From an uncultured Acidimicrobiaceae bacterium (GTDB lineage Bacteria; Actinomycetota; Acidimicrobiia; Acidimicrobiales; Ilumatobacteraceae), in the NCBI GenBank assembly GCA_903919455.1, contig CAIXIJ010000018.1, forward strand, positions 33,934-97,933: a DNA stretch of 64,000 bases, in the 5' to 3' direction. The translations under genes and the position numbers were made by a program. Under the pieces are notes generated by a model. That model ran no database searches. It was given only the letters and a program-made list of their open reading frames with translations, and was not told the origin of the DNA. Position 1 is the stretch's first letter. Each line of letters begins with the position of its first letter. Positions 30,619 through 36,759 of the stretch are shown here, piece by piece.

Positions 30619-32355
30619 ATGGCACTTTTCAAGAGCAAAGATCAGAGTGTTTCCGCCCCCGAGGGTGAGAGCGCGGCCGAATGCATGAAGGCCGGCCAGG
30701 TCCTCGTGGAGGGTGGCCACCTCACCCCCGAAGGCCTCGCAGAAGCACTGGGCGCAGCCAACGGCGATCTCCTCTCCTTCGCCGACCATCTCATGACCAG
30801 CCACACGGTGGGCCGCACGGAGTTGGCGCTCGCCATCTCCGCTGCCACCGGCGTGCCCGCCGTCGACACCAAGAACATCGTGGTGACGGACGACATCAAG
30901 GGTGTGTTGAACGAGGCCGTGGTGCGCAAGCAGTGCGCCGTGGCACTTGCCGCAGAGGGCGACACGCTCATCGTGCTGCTCGTCGACCCGTCGCCGGCAC
31001 GTAAGGCAGCCATCGAAGCCGAGGCGAAGCGCCCGGTGAAGTACTTCGTCGCCGACCCGAGCACGGTGCGCACCTTCATCGACTCGATCTACCGAGCCGA
31101 CGCCGACATCGACCGCATCCTCTCCTCGCTCGACATGAACGACGAGCAAGCCAAGCTGGCCGCTATCGCGTCGGAAGTGAGCCTCGACGACCAGGCACCG
31201 GTCATCCAGTTGGTGAACCGGATCGTCAGCCAGGCAATGCGCGACCGTGCCAGCGACATCCACATCGAACCGCTCGACGACAAGCTCCGCATCCGCTTCC
31301 GCATCGACGGTCACCTCGTGGAAGCGTTCAGCCTGCCGCACGCCGTGCATGCTGCGCTCACCAGTCGCCTGAAGATCATGAGCGGCATGAACATCGTGGA
31401 GAAGCGTCGCCCGCAGGACGGCCAGTTCTCCACCGTCATCGACGGCAAGGAGGTCGACGTTCGCGTCGCCTCCGTAGCCACGGTGTTCGGCGAGAAGATC
31501 GTGATGCGAATCCTCGACAAGTCGCGGTCCATGATCGGCCTGTCGGAACTGGGCTTTCCCCGCGAGACCTACCTGCACTACTCGAAGATGATCCACTCGC
31601 CGTTCGGCATGGTCATCTGCGCCGGCCCCACGGGTGCCGGCAAGACCACCACCCTGTACGCCTCGCTGCTCGAGGTGAACTCGTCGGGCAAGAACATCAC
31701 CACCGTGGAAGACCCGGTGGAGTACGTGTTCCCCGGGATCAACCAGATCCAGACCAACGATCAGGCTGGCCTCACGTTCGCCACCGGCCTCAAGGCCATC
31801 CTTCGTCAGGACCCCGACGTCATCCTCGTGGGCGAGATCCGCGACGCCGACACCGCCCGCATCGCCGTGCAGTCGGCCCTCACGGGTCACCTCGTGCTGT
31901 CCTCGCTGCACGGCACCGACAGCGTGGCAGCACTGCACCGCTTCCTCGACATGGGCATCGAGGCCTTCCTCATTGCTTCATCGGTCGTGGGCGTCATCGG
32001 CCAGCGTCTGTTGCGCCGAGTGTGCGATTCCTGCAAAGAGCCCTACACCCCGGGCGCCGACGAACTGGCCGTGTTCCGGCAGCACAGCGGCGGCAGCGAG
32101 AAGAGCACCTTCTACCGCGGCGCCGGCTGCAACTTCTGCGCCGGCACCGGGTACCGCGACCGCATCGGCGTCTACGAACTCTTGCGCATCACGCCCGAAC
32201 TCCGCCGCCTCATCGTCGGCTGGGCCACCACTGAAGAACTGCGTCGCCTCGCCGTCGCCCAGGGCATGCGCACCATGTTGCGCGAAGCCATGGCGCTGGT
32301 GGAGAACGACGTGACCACCATCCCTGAAGTCGTCCGAACTCTGTTCGCCAGCTAG
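30619..32355 (+). CDS. pilB: Type IV pilus assembly / type II secretion ATPase (PilB/GspE)
   Basis: SDIHIEP, GPTGAGKTTTLYASLLEVN, TVEDPVEY, GEIRDADTARIAVQSALTGHLVLSSLHGTD, CDSC/CNFC zinc site. Confidence 0.95.
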   Translation: MALFKSKDQSVSAPEGESAAECMKAGQVLVEGGHLTPEGLAEALGAANGDLLSFADHLMTSHTVGRTELALAISAATGVPAVDTKNIVVTDDIKGVLNEAVVRKQCAVALAAEGDTLIVLLVDPSPARKAAIEAEAKRPVKYFVADPSTVRTFIDSIYRADADIDRILSSLDMNDEQAKLAAIASEVSLDDQAPVIQLVNRIVSQAMRDRASDIHIEPLDDKLRIRFRIDGHLVEAFSLPHAVHAALTSRLKIMSGMNIVEKRRPQDGQFSTVIDGKEVDVRVASVATVFGEKIVMRILDKSRSMIGLSELGFPRETYLHYSKMIHSPFGMVICAGPTGAGKTTTLYASLLEVNSSGKNITTVEDPVEYVFPGINQIQTNDQAGLTFATGLKAILRQDPDVILVGEIRDADTARIAVQSALTGHLVLSSLHGTDSVAALHRFLDMGIEAFLIASSVVGVIGQRLLRRVCDSCKEPYTPGADELAVFRQHSGGSEKSTFYRGAGCNFCAGTGYRDRIGVYELLRITPELRRLIVGWATTEELRRLAVAQGMRTMLREAMALVENDVTTIPEVVRTLFAS

Positions 32356-32364
32356 GAGCCACTC

Positions 32365-33576
32365 ATGCCCAGGTTCGCCTACGCCGCCATTGATGCCAAC
32401 GGCACGTCCGTGGAAGGCATCACCAAGGCCTCGACCGTTGGCGAGGCGCGCACGCACCTGCTCGACAAGAGCCTGTACCCCGTGAAGATCGAGGAGAAGC
32501 GCGGTTCGCTCTCCTTCGAACTCACCAAGGAGAAGGTGAAGAAGAAGGAGTTGATGCACTTCACGCGTCAGCTCGCAGTGTTCGTGAAGGCGGGTATTCC
32601 GCTGACCGAGGCGATGGAGATCATCGGCGACGAGACCACCGACGTGGCCCTGCAGCGCACCATCTCGCACATGGTCGAAGACCTCCGCAACGGTGGCACC
32701 CTCTCCGGGGCTGCCGGCAAGCATCCCGAGGCATTTCCGATGTACTACATCGGCATCCTCGGCTCGGCTGAACTCACGGGCAAGCTCGACGAAACGCTGG
32801 AGAACCTGGCCGGCTATCTCGAGCGCGAGCTCGAGACGCGGTCGAAGGTGGTGTCGGCGCTCTCCTATCCGGGCGTGGTGATGGTGCTTGCGGTCTTCAC
32901 GGTGGCGGTGCTGGCCGGCTACGTGCTGCCGCAGTTCAAGCCGCTGTTCGAAGAACTCCACGCCGATCTCCCGCTCGCCACGCGCTCCCTGCTGTTCGTG
33001 GCGACGCTGTTCACCACGCTCTGGTACATCCCCTTCACCGTGGCCGGACTGTTCATGGCCTGGATGGTCTGGATGTTCAAGTCGCCTGCGGGAAGAACCT
33101 TCAAGGACCGACTCGTCCTGAAGCTTCCGGTCATCCGCGGCATCATGGAGTACTCCATCCTCGAACGCTTCTGCCGCATCCTCGGTGCCATGGTTCGCGC
33201 CGGCGTGCCGCTGCCGGATGCCATGCGCACCACCACGGAGGCCACGTCCAACATCGTGTTCCGCGAGCGCCTCGAAGAGGCCCAGTTGGAAATGATGGAA
33301 GGCAGCGGCTTTGCCAAGCCGTTGGCTCGTACCGAACTGTTTCCCGGCGCCGCCCGTCAGATGTTCAAGGTGGGCGAAGAAACCGGCACGCTCGACGAAC
33401 AACTCGAGGTGGCCAGCATCTACTTCGACCGTGAGCTCGAAGGCCGTATCAAGAAGTTCACCACCATGTTCGAGCCGTTGATGATCGTGATGGTGGGCCT
33501 CATCGTGGGCTTCGTGGCCGTCGCACTCGTGCAGGCAATGTACGGCGTCATGAGTGGCATGAAGGAACAGGCCTAA
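32365..33576 (+). CDS. pilC: Type IV pilus inner membrane platform protein (PilC/GspF)
   Basis: FTRQLAVFVKAGIPLTEAMEII, tandem T2SF domains, MFKVGEETGTLDEQLEVASIYFDRELEGRIKKFTTMFEPLMIVMVG. Confidence 0.95.
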   Translation: MPRFAYAAIDANGTSVEGITKASTVGEARTHLLDKSLYPVKIEEKRGSLSFELTKEKVKKKELMHFTRQLAVFVKAGIPLTEAMEIIGDETTDVALQRTISHMVEDLRNGGTLSGAAGKHPEAFPMYYIGILGSAELTGKLDETLENLAGYLERELETRSKVVSALSYPGVVMVLAVFTVAVLAGYVLPQFKPLFEELHADLPLATRSLLFVATLFTTLWYIPFTVAGLFMAWMVWMFKSPAGRTFKDRLVLKLPVIRGIMEYSILERFCRILGAMVRAGVPLPDAMRTTTEATSNIVFRERLEEAQLEMMEGSGFAKPLARTELFPGAARQMFKVGEETGTLDEQLEVASIYFDRELEGRIKKFTTMFEPLMIVMVGLIVGFVAVALVQAMYGVMSGMKEQA

Positions 33577-33612
33577 GCAAAGGGCTTGCTCGGGGTGGCG
33601 TACGCTCCGACC

Positions 33613-35058
33613 ATGGTCGCAAAGGATCACGAGGCTCATCCGCTGGTGCCACTTCCCCGACACGTGGAATGGCACGACGGCATCTGCGCATTGCCATCCG
33701 ACGTGGCTGTGGTGGCCGACCAACCCGACGCTGCGGCGGTTGCCACGATGTTCGTGATGGACCTCGCCACGCAGTCCGGCATACGGCCGCACCTGGCCGC
33801 TGAGCCCAGAGGCATCGATGTCACGTTGCAGCTCCACGCCCACCGCGCCGATCTGGGAACCGAGGGCTATGAGTTGTTCGCCGCGGCGGATGGGCTGGGC
33901 TTGGTGGCAGCGACACCACATGGTTTGTGGAACGCCACGCGCACGGCGCTGCAACTCATCCACGTTGACGGCACCTTGCCGGCGGCGCACATCCTCGACA
34001 TGCCGCGCTTCGAATGGCGAGGCGCCATGCTCGATGTGGCCCGTCACCCCTTCACCGCCGGCGATGTCTGCCGTTTCGTCGACCTGATCGCTCGCCACAA
34101 ACTGAATCGGCTGCACCTCCACCTCACCGACGATCAGGGATGGCGGCTCGAGATTCCCGATTGGCCTGCGCTGTCGTTGGTGGGCGGCAGCACCGCCACC
34201 GGGGGCGATCCTGGCGGCTGGTTCACCCTGTCGGACTGGGCCCACATCGTGGCCTACGCGAGCGACCGCTTCGTGTCCATCGTGCCCGAGGTGGACATGC
34301 CGGGTCACACCAACGCCGCGCTCGCTTCGGTACCCAACCTGAACCCCGATGGCGTCGCTCCCCCGCTGTACACCGGCAAGGAGGTCGGTTTCAGTTCCTT
34401 ACGGCTCGACCTTCCCCTCACGCGCCGTTTCGTCAGCGACGTGGTGGCCACGCTGGCCGCGGTCACGCCGGGCGAGTACCTCCACATCGGCGGCGACGAG
34501 GCCCACTCCACCGATCCCGACGCGTACGTGGAGTTCATCACCTTCCTGCAAATGGAGGTGGAGCGCCACGGCAAGAGCATGGTGGGGTGGGAGGAAATCA
34601 CGGCCGCGCCATTGAATCGGCACAGCCTCGTACAGCATTGGCTCCGACCGGAGACCGCCGCCAAAGCGCCCCGAGCCTGCCGGATCATCATGTCGCCGGC
34701 ACGCCACACCTACCTCGACATGCAACACGCCGAGGGCGACCCCATCGGCCGCCGCTGGGCTGGCGCCATCGATCTGCCCACCATCCACGACTGGGACCCA
34801 GCTACGCAGATTCCCGATGTCGACGATCACCGCATCGCAGGCGTAGAGGCACCGCTGTGGACCGAGAAGGTGCGCACCTTCGAACAGGTGCAGACGTTGT
34901 GCTTTCCGCGCCTGCTGTGTCTCGCCGAGGTGGGCTGGACGCAACAAGCGCAGCGCTCATGGCCCTCGTTTGCGCCTCGACTTGCGGCGGCCACCGAGCG
35001 TCTGGCTGCCGACGGTGTTCCTGTCTACCGCTCTGCGTCGCTCGCCTCGGACGGCTGA
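33613..35058 (+). CDS. Beta-N-acetylhexosaminidase (GH20)
   Basis: FEWRGAMLDVARHPF, LHLHLTDDQGWRLEI, VPEVDMPGHTNAAL, YLHIGGDEAH, GVEAPLWTEKV. Confidence 0.93.
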   Translation: MVAKDHEAHPLVPLPRHVEWHDGICALPSDVAVVADQPDAAAVATMFVMDLATQSGIRPHLAAEPRGIDVTLQLHAHRADLGTEGYELFAAADGLGLVAATPHGLWNATRTALQLIHVDGTLPAAHILDMPRFEWRGAMLDVARHPFTAGDVCRFVDLIARHKLNRLHLHLTDDQGWRLEIPDWPALSLVGGSTATGGDPGGWFTLSDWAHIVAYASDRFVSIVPEVDMPGHTNAALASVPNLNPDGVAPPLYTGKEVGFSSLRLDLPLTRRFVSDVVATLAAVTPGEYLHIGGDEAHSTDPDAYVEFITFLQMEVERHGKSMVGWEEITAAPLNRHSLVQHWLRPETAAKAPRACRIIMSPARHTYLDMQHAEGDPIGRRWAGAIDLPTIHDWDPATQIPDVDDHRIAGVEAPLWTEKVRTFEQVQTLCFPRLLCLAEVGWTQQAQRSWPSFAPRLAAATERLAADGVPVYRSASLASDG

Positions 35059-35606
35059 TCATCCTCGAGGCTGGCCCGGTGTTCCTTCCATGCCGCGGGC
35101 AGTAGGAACAGCATCGACATCAATCCGAAGCTGAAGCCCACCACCAGCGGGCTGCTCGCGAGACCCACCAGTCGGCCGAAGTGCGGCAGCGTGAACCTCG
35201 GCGAACCCAGGATGTCGCGCTTCGCGATCTTGAACGGGTCCGGGTAGCGGCGGTTGTCGCCCTTGGTTTCGAACGTGCCATCGGGCCGAATGGCATGAAT
35301 GCGGTGAACCACCATCATGCCGGGTGCTGGCCCTCCCTTCGGGAGTTGAACCACGACGATGTCGCCGATCTTCGGGTGGTCGATCCGCTTCACGAGGAGG
35401 GCATCCCCGAGGTGATACACCGGTTCCATCGACGAGCCCTGCACGATGATGAAGCGGGTGTTGCCACCCAGGGCGGCCGGCCATGCAAACCACGCGGCAA
35501 GACCGACCAGCAACAACAGCAGCAGGTCCAGCAGGTTGCGACGCGCGCGCTGCGGAGTAGCAGCATCGCGGCCAACTCTGTGGAAGGTGATCGTCGAAGT
35601 GCTCAT
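35025..35606 (-). CDS. Signal peptidase I, archaeal/SipW-like (S26)
   Basis: GSSMEPVYHLGDALLVKR (Ser box) with VVHRIHAI and FETKGDNRRYPDP (D/N box); His in place of catalytic Lys region suggests ER/SipW type. Confidence 0.82.
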   Translation of the reverse strand: MSTSTITFHRVGRDAATPQRARRNLLDLLLLLLVGLAAWFAWPAALGGNTRFIIVQGSSMEPVYHLGDALLVKRIDHPKIGDIVVVQLPKGGPAPGMMVVHRIHAIRPDGTFETKGDNRRYPDPFKIAKRDILGSPRFTLPHFGRLVGLASSPLVVGFSFGLMSMLFLLPAAWKEHRASLEDDQPSEASDAER

Positions 35607-36355
35607 GGAAATGGGGTCGTGACGTAGATGCGGCTGAAGCGAAGCGTGGCGCTCGTGTTGGTGTACAGCCCGGCGCGAGTGCCGAGGGCCAACGAGGTCA
35701 CCTGCGCTGCTGTGAGGACGGCCGTAGCCGCCACCACGCCATCCACTCTCAGGGTGATGGCCGTGCCTTGGCGAGTGAGGCGCAGCACGGTGCTGGCGCC
35801 AATGGTGGCCGTGGCCGTGGCGAGCGTGGTGACGCTGTTGACATTGATGAAGCGGAGTTGCACTTGATTGAGGGCCGAGACCACACCCGCCACGTAGATG
35901 CGGGTCGTTCCGGTGTGCGACACCGCGACGCCACCCACACGGCCGGCCACGTTCGCGTTGAGCAAGGTGACCTCGGCCGACATGTCGGTACTCCTGACCG
36001 GGAACGAAGCATTTGCGTTGGCAACGCTGGTCGAGCCGGCCTGGCCGGTGGTGATCGACCACGTGCCGGTGTGTGAGGTCCAGGTTCCTGTGCCGCAGTT
36101 GGCCGGCAGTTGTACCGGTCGACTCGCCATCGCGGCACCGGTGGCCGCGGCCAGCGAGAAGTCGTCGCACGCCAGTCGGGTGCCCGCGAGCGCAGCGACC
36201 GCTTGGTCCTGCGCCCGCAGCGCCTGAGAACTCAACGCCCCAAGGGTTGCGGCACTCGACCCGTGGAGCGCGGCCACAAGCACCGTCGACACTGCGACGA
36301 CGACCGCGGCACGCACTCCACGCGCCAAGTTCCGTACCCCGAGGCGTCGCATCAT
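35603..36355 (-). CDS. Secreted protein with SipW-type signal; LamG/jelly-roll-like
   Basis: N-term signal plus SSAATLGALSSQAL motif; beta-rich body (VGGVAVSHTGTTRIYVAGVV...AGLYTNTSATLRFSRIYV). Confidence 0.65.
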   Translation of the reverse strand: MMRRLGVRNLARGVRAAVVVAVSTVLVAALHGSSAATLGALSSQALRAQDQAVAALAGTRLACDDFSLAAATGAAMASRPVQLPANCGTGTWTSHTGTWSITTGQAGSTSVANANASFPVRSTDMSAEVTLLNANVAGRVGGVAVSHTGTTRIYVAGVVSALNQVQLRFINVNSVTTLATATATIGASTVLRLTRQGTAITLRVDGVVAATAVLTAAQVTSLALGTRAGLYTNTSATLRFSRIYVTTPFP

Positions 36356-36759
36356 CAGCCCGAGATGATCAACGAGCTGCCGCTCACCGAGCCGGCGTCG
36401 ACGGCTGCCGACAGCGTCAGCGAGAACGTGTTCGTGCCGCTCACCGTGATGGCTGCCGACGTTGCCGAGCCCAGCAGTGTGGTGCCATTGCGCAGCGAGA
36501 CTGCAGCGGCCTTACCACTGCAGTTGGAGTTGACCCCTCCGAAGTTCACTGCGGTCACCTGATACTTCTGGGCCGTAGCCGAGTAGCTCGTCGTGTAGCT
36601 CACCGCAATGCCGTCGGTGTCGCATGACGCAACGGTCGCGTCATCGGAACCAACCGCACCGCTGGTGAGGCCGCCGAGCGTGGCAGCCGAGGCACCGGCC
36701 ATGCCGGCTACCGAGACGCTGGCCAGAACGGCGAGTGCAATTTTGCGAGGAATGTGCAT
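36355..36759 (-). CDS. Small secreted protein with SipW-type signal peptide
   Basis: MHIPRKIALAVLASVSVAGMAGASAATLGGLTSGAVGSDDATVASCDTDGIAVSY; one Cys pair. Confidence 0.65.
   Translation of the reverse strand: MHIPRKIALAVLASVSVAGMAGASAATLGGLTSGAVGSDDATVASCDTDGIAVSYTTSYSATAQKYQVTAVNFGGVNSNCSGKAAAVSLRNGTTLLGSATSAAITVSGTNTFSLTLSAAVDAGSVSGSSLIISG

Follow-up and report, generated by a model that had tools for sequence, protein, structure and literature searches.

We analysed a stretch of 64,000 nucleotides (the window) from an uncultured, freshwater-type Acidimicrobiaceae bacterium and found in it a compact cassette encoding two secreted proteins and a signal peptidase. By analogy with known fibre systems, we somewhat favour the reading that the cassette encodes a small surface fibre of the donor-strand type, which would have a sugar-binding subunit at its end and a peptidase dedicated to it. 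The result would probably be a sticky fibre on the cell surface that resembles the Bacillus TasA biofilm fibre but is built from a protein family undescribed in Pfam and NCBIfam. The cassette most likely works like TapA-SipW-TasA, although profile searches gave no TasA/camelysin membership. The three-gene cassette is a conserved unit and not an accident.

Cassette layout and signal peptidase

All three open reading frames were located on the minus strand. Gene 1 (P0003, 36355..36759) encodes a 134-aa secreted protein, the proposed major fibre subunit. It is followed by gene 2 (P0002, 35603..36355), encoding a 250-aa secreted protein that is proposed to be an initiating or tip/anchor subunit. 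Gene 3 (P0001, 35025..35606, with its ATG at 35606) encodes a 193-aa Ser-His signal peptidase I of the SipW/archaeal/ER type. Gene 1 was joined to gene 2 by a TGATG stop-start overlap (36353..36357, minus strand) and gene 2 to gene 3 by an ATGA start-stop overlap (35603..35606, minus strand). The gene order, the strand and both joins given in the original prediction were confirmed from the sequence. A promoter and terminator scan gave no signal above chance. Upstream of the cassette was a divergent ClpB gene (36926 onward), and downstream was a convergent GH20-like hexosaminidase gene (33586-35058, plus strand); both names came from reading of the translations. The 3' ends of the hexosaminidase-like gene and the peptidase gene overlapped by 34 bases. 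PilB (30619-32355) and PilC (32365-33576) were encoded on the strand opposite to the cassette.

The predicted archaeal/ER/SipW-like character of the peptidase was borne out by curated profiles. P0001 scored 60.9 bits with the archaeal model TIGR02228 (sigpep_I_arch, cut-off 51.85), whereas the bacterial model TIGR02227 gave just 27.9 bits, below its cut-off of 47. Unlike the Bacillus enzyme, it did not reach the SipW equivalog model NF046067 (30.3 bits, cut-off 190). The motifs SSMEP (58-62), VVHRI (99-103) and KGDN (115-118) were found, and Ser59, His101 and Asp117 were assigned from them. The best PDB matches were human SEC11A and SEC11C (E 3e-9). Among 60 related peptidases, 57 were readable by pattern, and all 57 had His and not Lys at the general-base position. 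Since the genome also has two ordinary Ser-Lys signal peptidases (C19, C110), general export is independent of P0001. Judged from the sequence and the gene linkage, the co-encoded Ser-His peptidase would cut both secreted proteins after an AxA site. A tandem pair of SipW-type signal peptidases per cassette was observed at two loci, L070 (1571-2545, 2542-3132) and L075 (1529-2503, 2473-3072). In addition, a second SipW-type peptidase locus in the same family (L129:1938-2336, L133:1049-1447) adjoined a different 132-aa protein starting MNITKRNKIIIGAVALAGAAAVTGSAFTA, which is perhaps another substrate class.

The two secreted proteins and their shared tail

The mature gene 1 product was modelled by AF2 with a mean pLDDT of 87.9, a pTM of 0.77 and seven strands, and we confidently assign it a predicted Ig-like beta-sandwich fold. 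Two Cys residues, C46 and C80, were near-invariant in the family. Profile searches showed that the family is absent from Pfam and NCBIfam, and an NCBIfam search with ten relatives matched no family. The gene 1 (P3) profile gave no match to the PDB by sequence. Foldseek gave no PDB match at E <= 0.001, returning generic beta-sandwiches only, and no confident match to any donor-strand pilin; the best VIA Z was 6.1. TasA and archaeal pili were absent from the structural matches listed. In relatives, at L060:6931-8790, four small-protein paralogues stood in a row upstream of a single peptidase gene, and at L059:10151-11107 a small-protein-like domain was fused to Gly/Asp-rich repeats resembling RTX calcium-binding repeats.

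The mature gene 2 product (AF2 pLDDT 85.7, pTM 0.83) was modelled as a ConA-like sandwich. The model matched 4b1m, the CBM66 of a Bacillus levanase, with a Foldseek E of 9.7e-9 and, for chain 4b1m_C, a VIA Z of 19.5 (rmsd 2.2, 156 aligned); the sequence profile matched the same entry (E 0.0039). These results indicated that gene 2 encodes a predicted ConA/CBM66-like lectin fold behind the shared tail. The model was also like mycobacteriophage receptor-binding domains (VIA Z 18-20). Sugar binding by the gene 2 product is suggested by the modelled fold, and a shared fold by itself shows no function. In some relatives the middle gene was exchanged. At L074, the gene between the small protein and the peptidase encoded a CBM96 protein (PF24517, 59 bits) behind ASLNITSASL. 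At L102, a protein that begins with ATLGGLSAASL had a CBM2 domain at its end, scoring 25.2 bits against a cut-off of 24. At L101:5129-5845, in a Microbacteriaceae MAG, a collagen-like repeat protein (PF01391, 36.6 bits) adjoined the peptidase. From these exchanges it follows that the sugar-binding part varies, and that tail, small sandwich and peptidase are what the cassettes have in common.

The N-terminal motif, predicted to be common to both secreted proteins, was found as ASAATLGGLTS and SSAATLGALSS. The profiles of the two families aligned over their first 23 columns only (hhalign E 1.6e-4, 48% identity). In a scan of 12-column windows, the two N-termini were mutual best matches with a score of 21.4; the next best was 2.2 or 7.9, and windows overall had a mean of about -12 to -13. 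The sharing of the motif between the gene 1 and gene 2 families is more than chance. We also compared the gene 2 (P2) tail with the gene 1 tail of its own locus, and the match was no better than with the gene 1 tails of others (p 0.16). A degenerate DNA pattern for AATLGxL gave four matches genome-wide. The signal-peptide context was found only in the two cassette genes, and the other two matches were inside a branched-chain permease and QueA, as named from reading of the sequences. The genome-wide motif search therefore recovered both cassette proteins and no further secreted protein. The candidate role of AATLGxL as an export motif of many proteins in the genome was rejected, as only both cassette proteins carry it.

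Small residues at positions -1 and -3 are the classic AxA rule of signal peptide cleavage. Residue -1 was Ala in 53 of 55 aligned precursors, and residue -3 was Ala, Ser, Gly or Val, also in 53 of 55. From these residues of the relatives, the signal peptide of gene 1 was predicted to comprise residues 1-25 (36685..36759, minus strand), with the cut between GASA and the following A. The motif sits after this predicted site, so the mature protein would begin with it. The proposed donor strand of gene 1 is ATLGGLTSGAVG (36649..36684, minus strand), and that of gene 2, in the same register, is ATLGALSSQALR (36215..36250, minus strand). Among the small proteins the mature tail has the form A-[TS]-L-G-G-[LIV]-[TS]-x-x-x-[LV]-G. 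The lectin family has A-[ST]-L-G-G-[LIV]-x-x-x-x-L, with an invariant Leu11. In the alignments of both families, tail conservation reached mature +11/+12; for the small proteins (alignment A3) it was partly selected, as the loci were partly found via a pattern containing the motif. Neither the lectin set nor the search of 150 family genomes was selected by this pattern. Mature residues 1-13 of gene 1 had a pLDDT below 50 and yet were conserved above average, and the first 20 mature residues of gene 2 mostly had low pLDDT. The tail was thus conserved yet disordered in the AlphaFold monomers, and it was the sole part common to both proteins; in this it is like the donor strands of TasA and TapA. 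The motif had been read as an export motif. Because it follows the AxA site and is conserved to mature +12, a donor strand fits better. The AATLG motif is probably a tail of the mature protein and not an export signal, as far as the sequences indicate.

Distribution and relation to known fibre systems

The cassette was searched for in 150 genomes of the organism's own family. P0003 was found in 19 genomes and P0001 in 21; 16 genomes had both, three had P0003 only and five had P0001 only. The co-occurrence gave a Fisher p of 1.3e-14, a value inflated by shared ancestry. Of the P0003-only genomes, two (G042, G088) were broken by a contig edge, and in the third (G016) the match was weak and contained stop codons. 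The order of small protein, lectin-like protein and peptidase was preserved in most family members. Scanning named genomes yielded 41 loci, and a SipW-type peptidase adjoined the small protein in nearly all of them. These loci were mostly from Actinomycetota, namely Ilumatobacteraceae, other Acidimicrobiia, Cellulomonas, Nocardioides, Aeromicrobium, Microbacteriaceae, Tessaracoccus and Arachnia, with two Chloroflexi among them. Across the phylum the cassette was rare (9 of 396 sampled genomes), and none was found in the viral contigs searched.

TasA-type fibres are known from Bacillota and archaea. The TapA-SipW-TasA-like logic of the original prediction held, in that two proteins with a common N-terminal stretch and a dedicated peptidase were kept as a cassette. 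Membership in the known families did not hold. The TasA/camelysin family PF12389 had no match in P0002, P0003 or 44 relatives, and its best match in the genome (12.2 bits, cut-off 22.5) was outside the cassette. The SipW-cognate signal TIGR04088 did not match the cassette, even with an E threshold as loose as 10. As in Bacillus subtilis tapA-sipW-tasA, a SipW-type peptidase is co-encoded with two substrates sharing a mature N-terminal stretch, and a small beta-sandwich candidate major subunit is accompanied by a candidate minor subunit that is a complete fold in itself. However, the candidate minor subunit here is a predicted ConA/CBM66-like lectin, whereas TapA has an Ig fold. In TasA, the donor strand comprises residues 28-38 at the mature N-terminus, with hydrophobic contacts at Phe29, Ile32 and Phe39, and the N-terminus of TapA resembles this strand (PMC9674648). 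The Ig fold of TapA is complete, and the filament starts when TapA donates its N-terminus (PMC10151520).

Other systems were similar in part. In Clostridium perfringens, sipW-bsaA is likewise an operon that encodes a secreted protein polymer together with the SipW peptidase on which it depends (PMC7395162), but the BsaA family and the neighbours differ. In the Sulfolobus thread, SPase I-processed Ig-like subunits (Saci_0406) are joined by N-terminal donor strands, and a second protein, the putative cap Saci_0405, has a donor tail and no acceptor site (PMC9715654). That system is archaeal, however, with no dedicated peptidase in the described cassette and a cap that is not a lectin. Type 1 pili of the chaperone-usher kind, with FimH as their lectin tip, share the donor-strand idea and a sugar-binding end subunit. 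In contrast to these pili, the cassette has no chaperone or usher, and the lectin would bear the donor tail and not an acceptor domain.

Proposed mechanism and alternative readings

We propose that both secreted proteins are exported through the Sec pathway and that the co-encoded Ser-His peptidase would cut each of them behind its AxA site. Cleavage would leave 12 residues free at the N-terminus, the tail A-[TS]-L-G-G-[LIV]-[TS]-x-x-x-L-G. On the gene 1 product, the proposed Ig-like major subunit, this tail may then insert into the next subunit, so that the protein could both give and accept a strand and a filament would result. The gene 2 product would be able to give a strand only, because its tail precedes a complete ConA/CBM66-like domain without need to accept one. 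It may start or end the filament, as is thought for TapA and Saci_0405, and the lectin end would provide adhesion or a grip on the cell's own glycans. Strand exchange, filament formation and the place of the lectin at a filament end are all suggested by analogy.

The AATLGxL motif might instead be a recognition sequence for the dedicated peptidase, with two unrelated secreted products and no fibre required. We consider this rather unlikely. The motif does lie at the cleavage site, the peptidase and the motif proteins are tightly linked, and residues just past the cut can matter: Phe at P2' makes the TasA cleavage site unsuited to LepB (PMC10269814). However, P2' is Thr or Ser here and not aromatic as in TasA, the AxA site looks ordinary, and conservation to +11/+12, with the invariant Leu11 of the lectin family, exceeds the expected reach of peptidase subsites. 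The two purposes of the motif, peptidase recognition and donor strand, are not exclusive. An unlikely reading, given still less weight, is that the two products form a surface coat that is not fibrous, or else an adhesin complex whose tails anchor to a common partner such as a cell-wall protein or the membrane. A shared tail could dock on any third partner, no fibre was seen, and in some relatives gene 1 has several paralogues and there are further passengers of collagen-like or RTX-like type. Against this, most loci showed no additional conserved gene next to the three, and a polymer subunit would be expected to have just such a domain as that of gene 1, which is small and single and was never missing.

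It also appears improbable that gene 1 encodes a true TasA/camelysin homologue diverged beyond sequence detection. The operon logic, the N-terminal tail, the beta-sandwich and the SipW-type peptidase are all alike, but PF12389 matched no part of the cassette. TasA was also absent from the structural matches listed, an absence compatible with either view. Least probable by far is that the cassette belongs to the nearby type IV pilus system. The original prediction had taken the closeness of PilB and PilC as a hint of a matrix or surface-fibre system, a hint that found no support. The arrangement of PilB, PilC, hexosaminidase, cassette and ClpB recurred with PilB/PilC in one relative genome (G120, the source of L044/L069). 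Yet the cassette is on the opposite strand, and no type IV prepilin-type peptidase site was found in its proteins; the AxA site follows the hydrophobic stretch instead of preceding it. At the other fetched loci, within contig limits, the cassette stood in other contexts without PilB/PilC. The proximity looks incidental and a matter of local synteny only.

The donor-strand fibre remains our preferred reading. Extending it, we put forward as a tentative possibility a so far undescribed actinobacterial class of donor-strand fibres unrelated to TasA by sequence, with a swappable CBM end (CBM66-like, CBM96 or CBM2) behind the donor tail and its own ER/archaeal-type peptidase. A literature search, in which subscription papers were thinly covered, gave no description of a TasA-type fibre or such a system for Actinomycetota. 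If the proposal is true, environmental actinobacteria, including the little-cultured Ilumatobacteraceae, would gain a three-gene route to sugar-binding adhesive fibres. It would give the SipW-type peptidases of these lineages a named job, and it would describe a modular scaffold whose sugar-binding part evolution has exchanged. Culturable relatives such as Cellulomonas carry the cassette, which makes the proposal directly testable.
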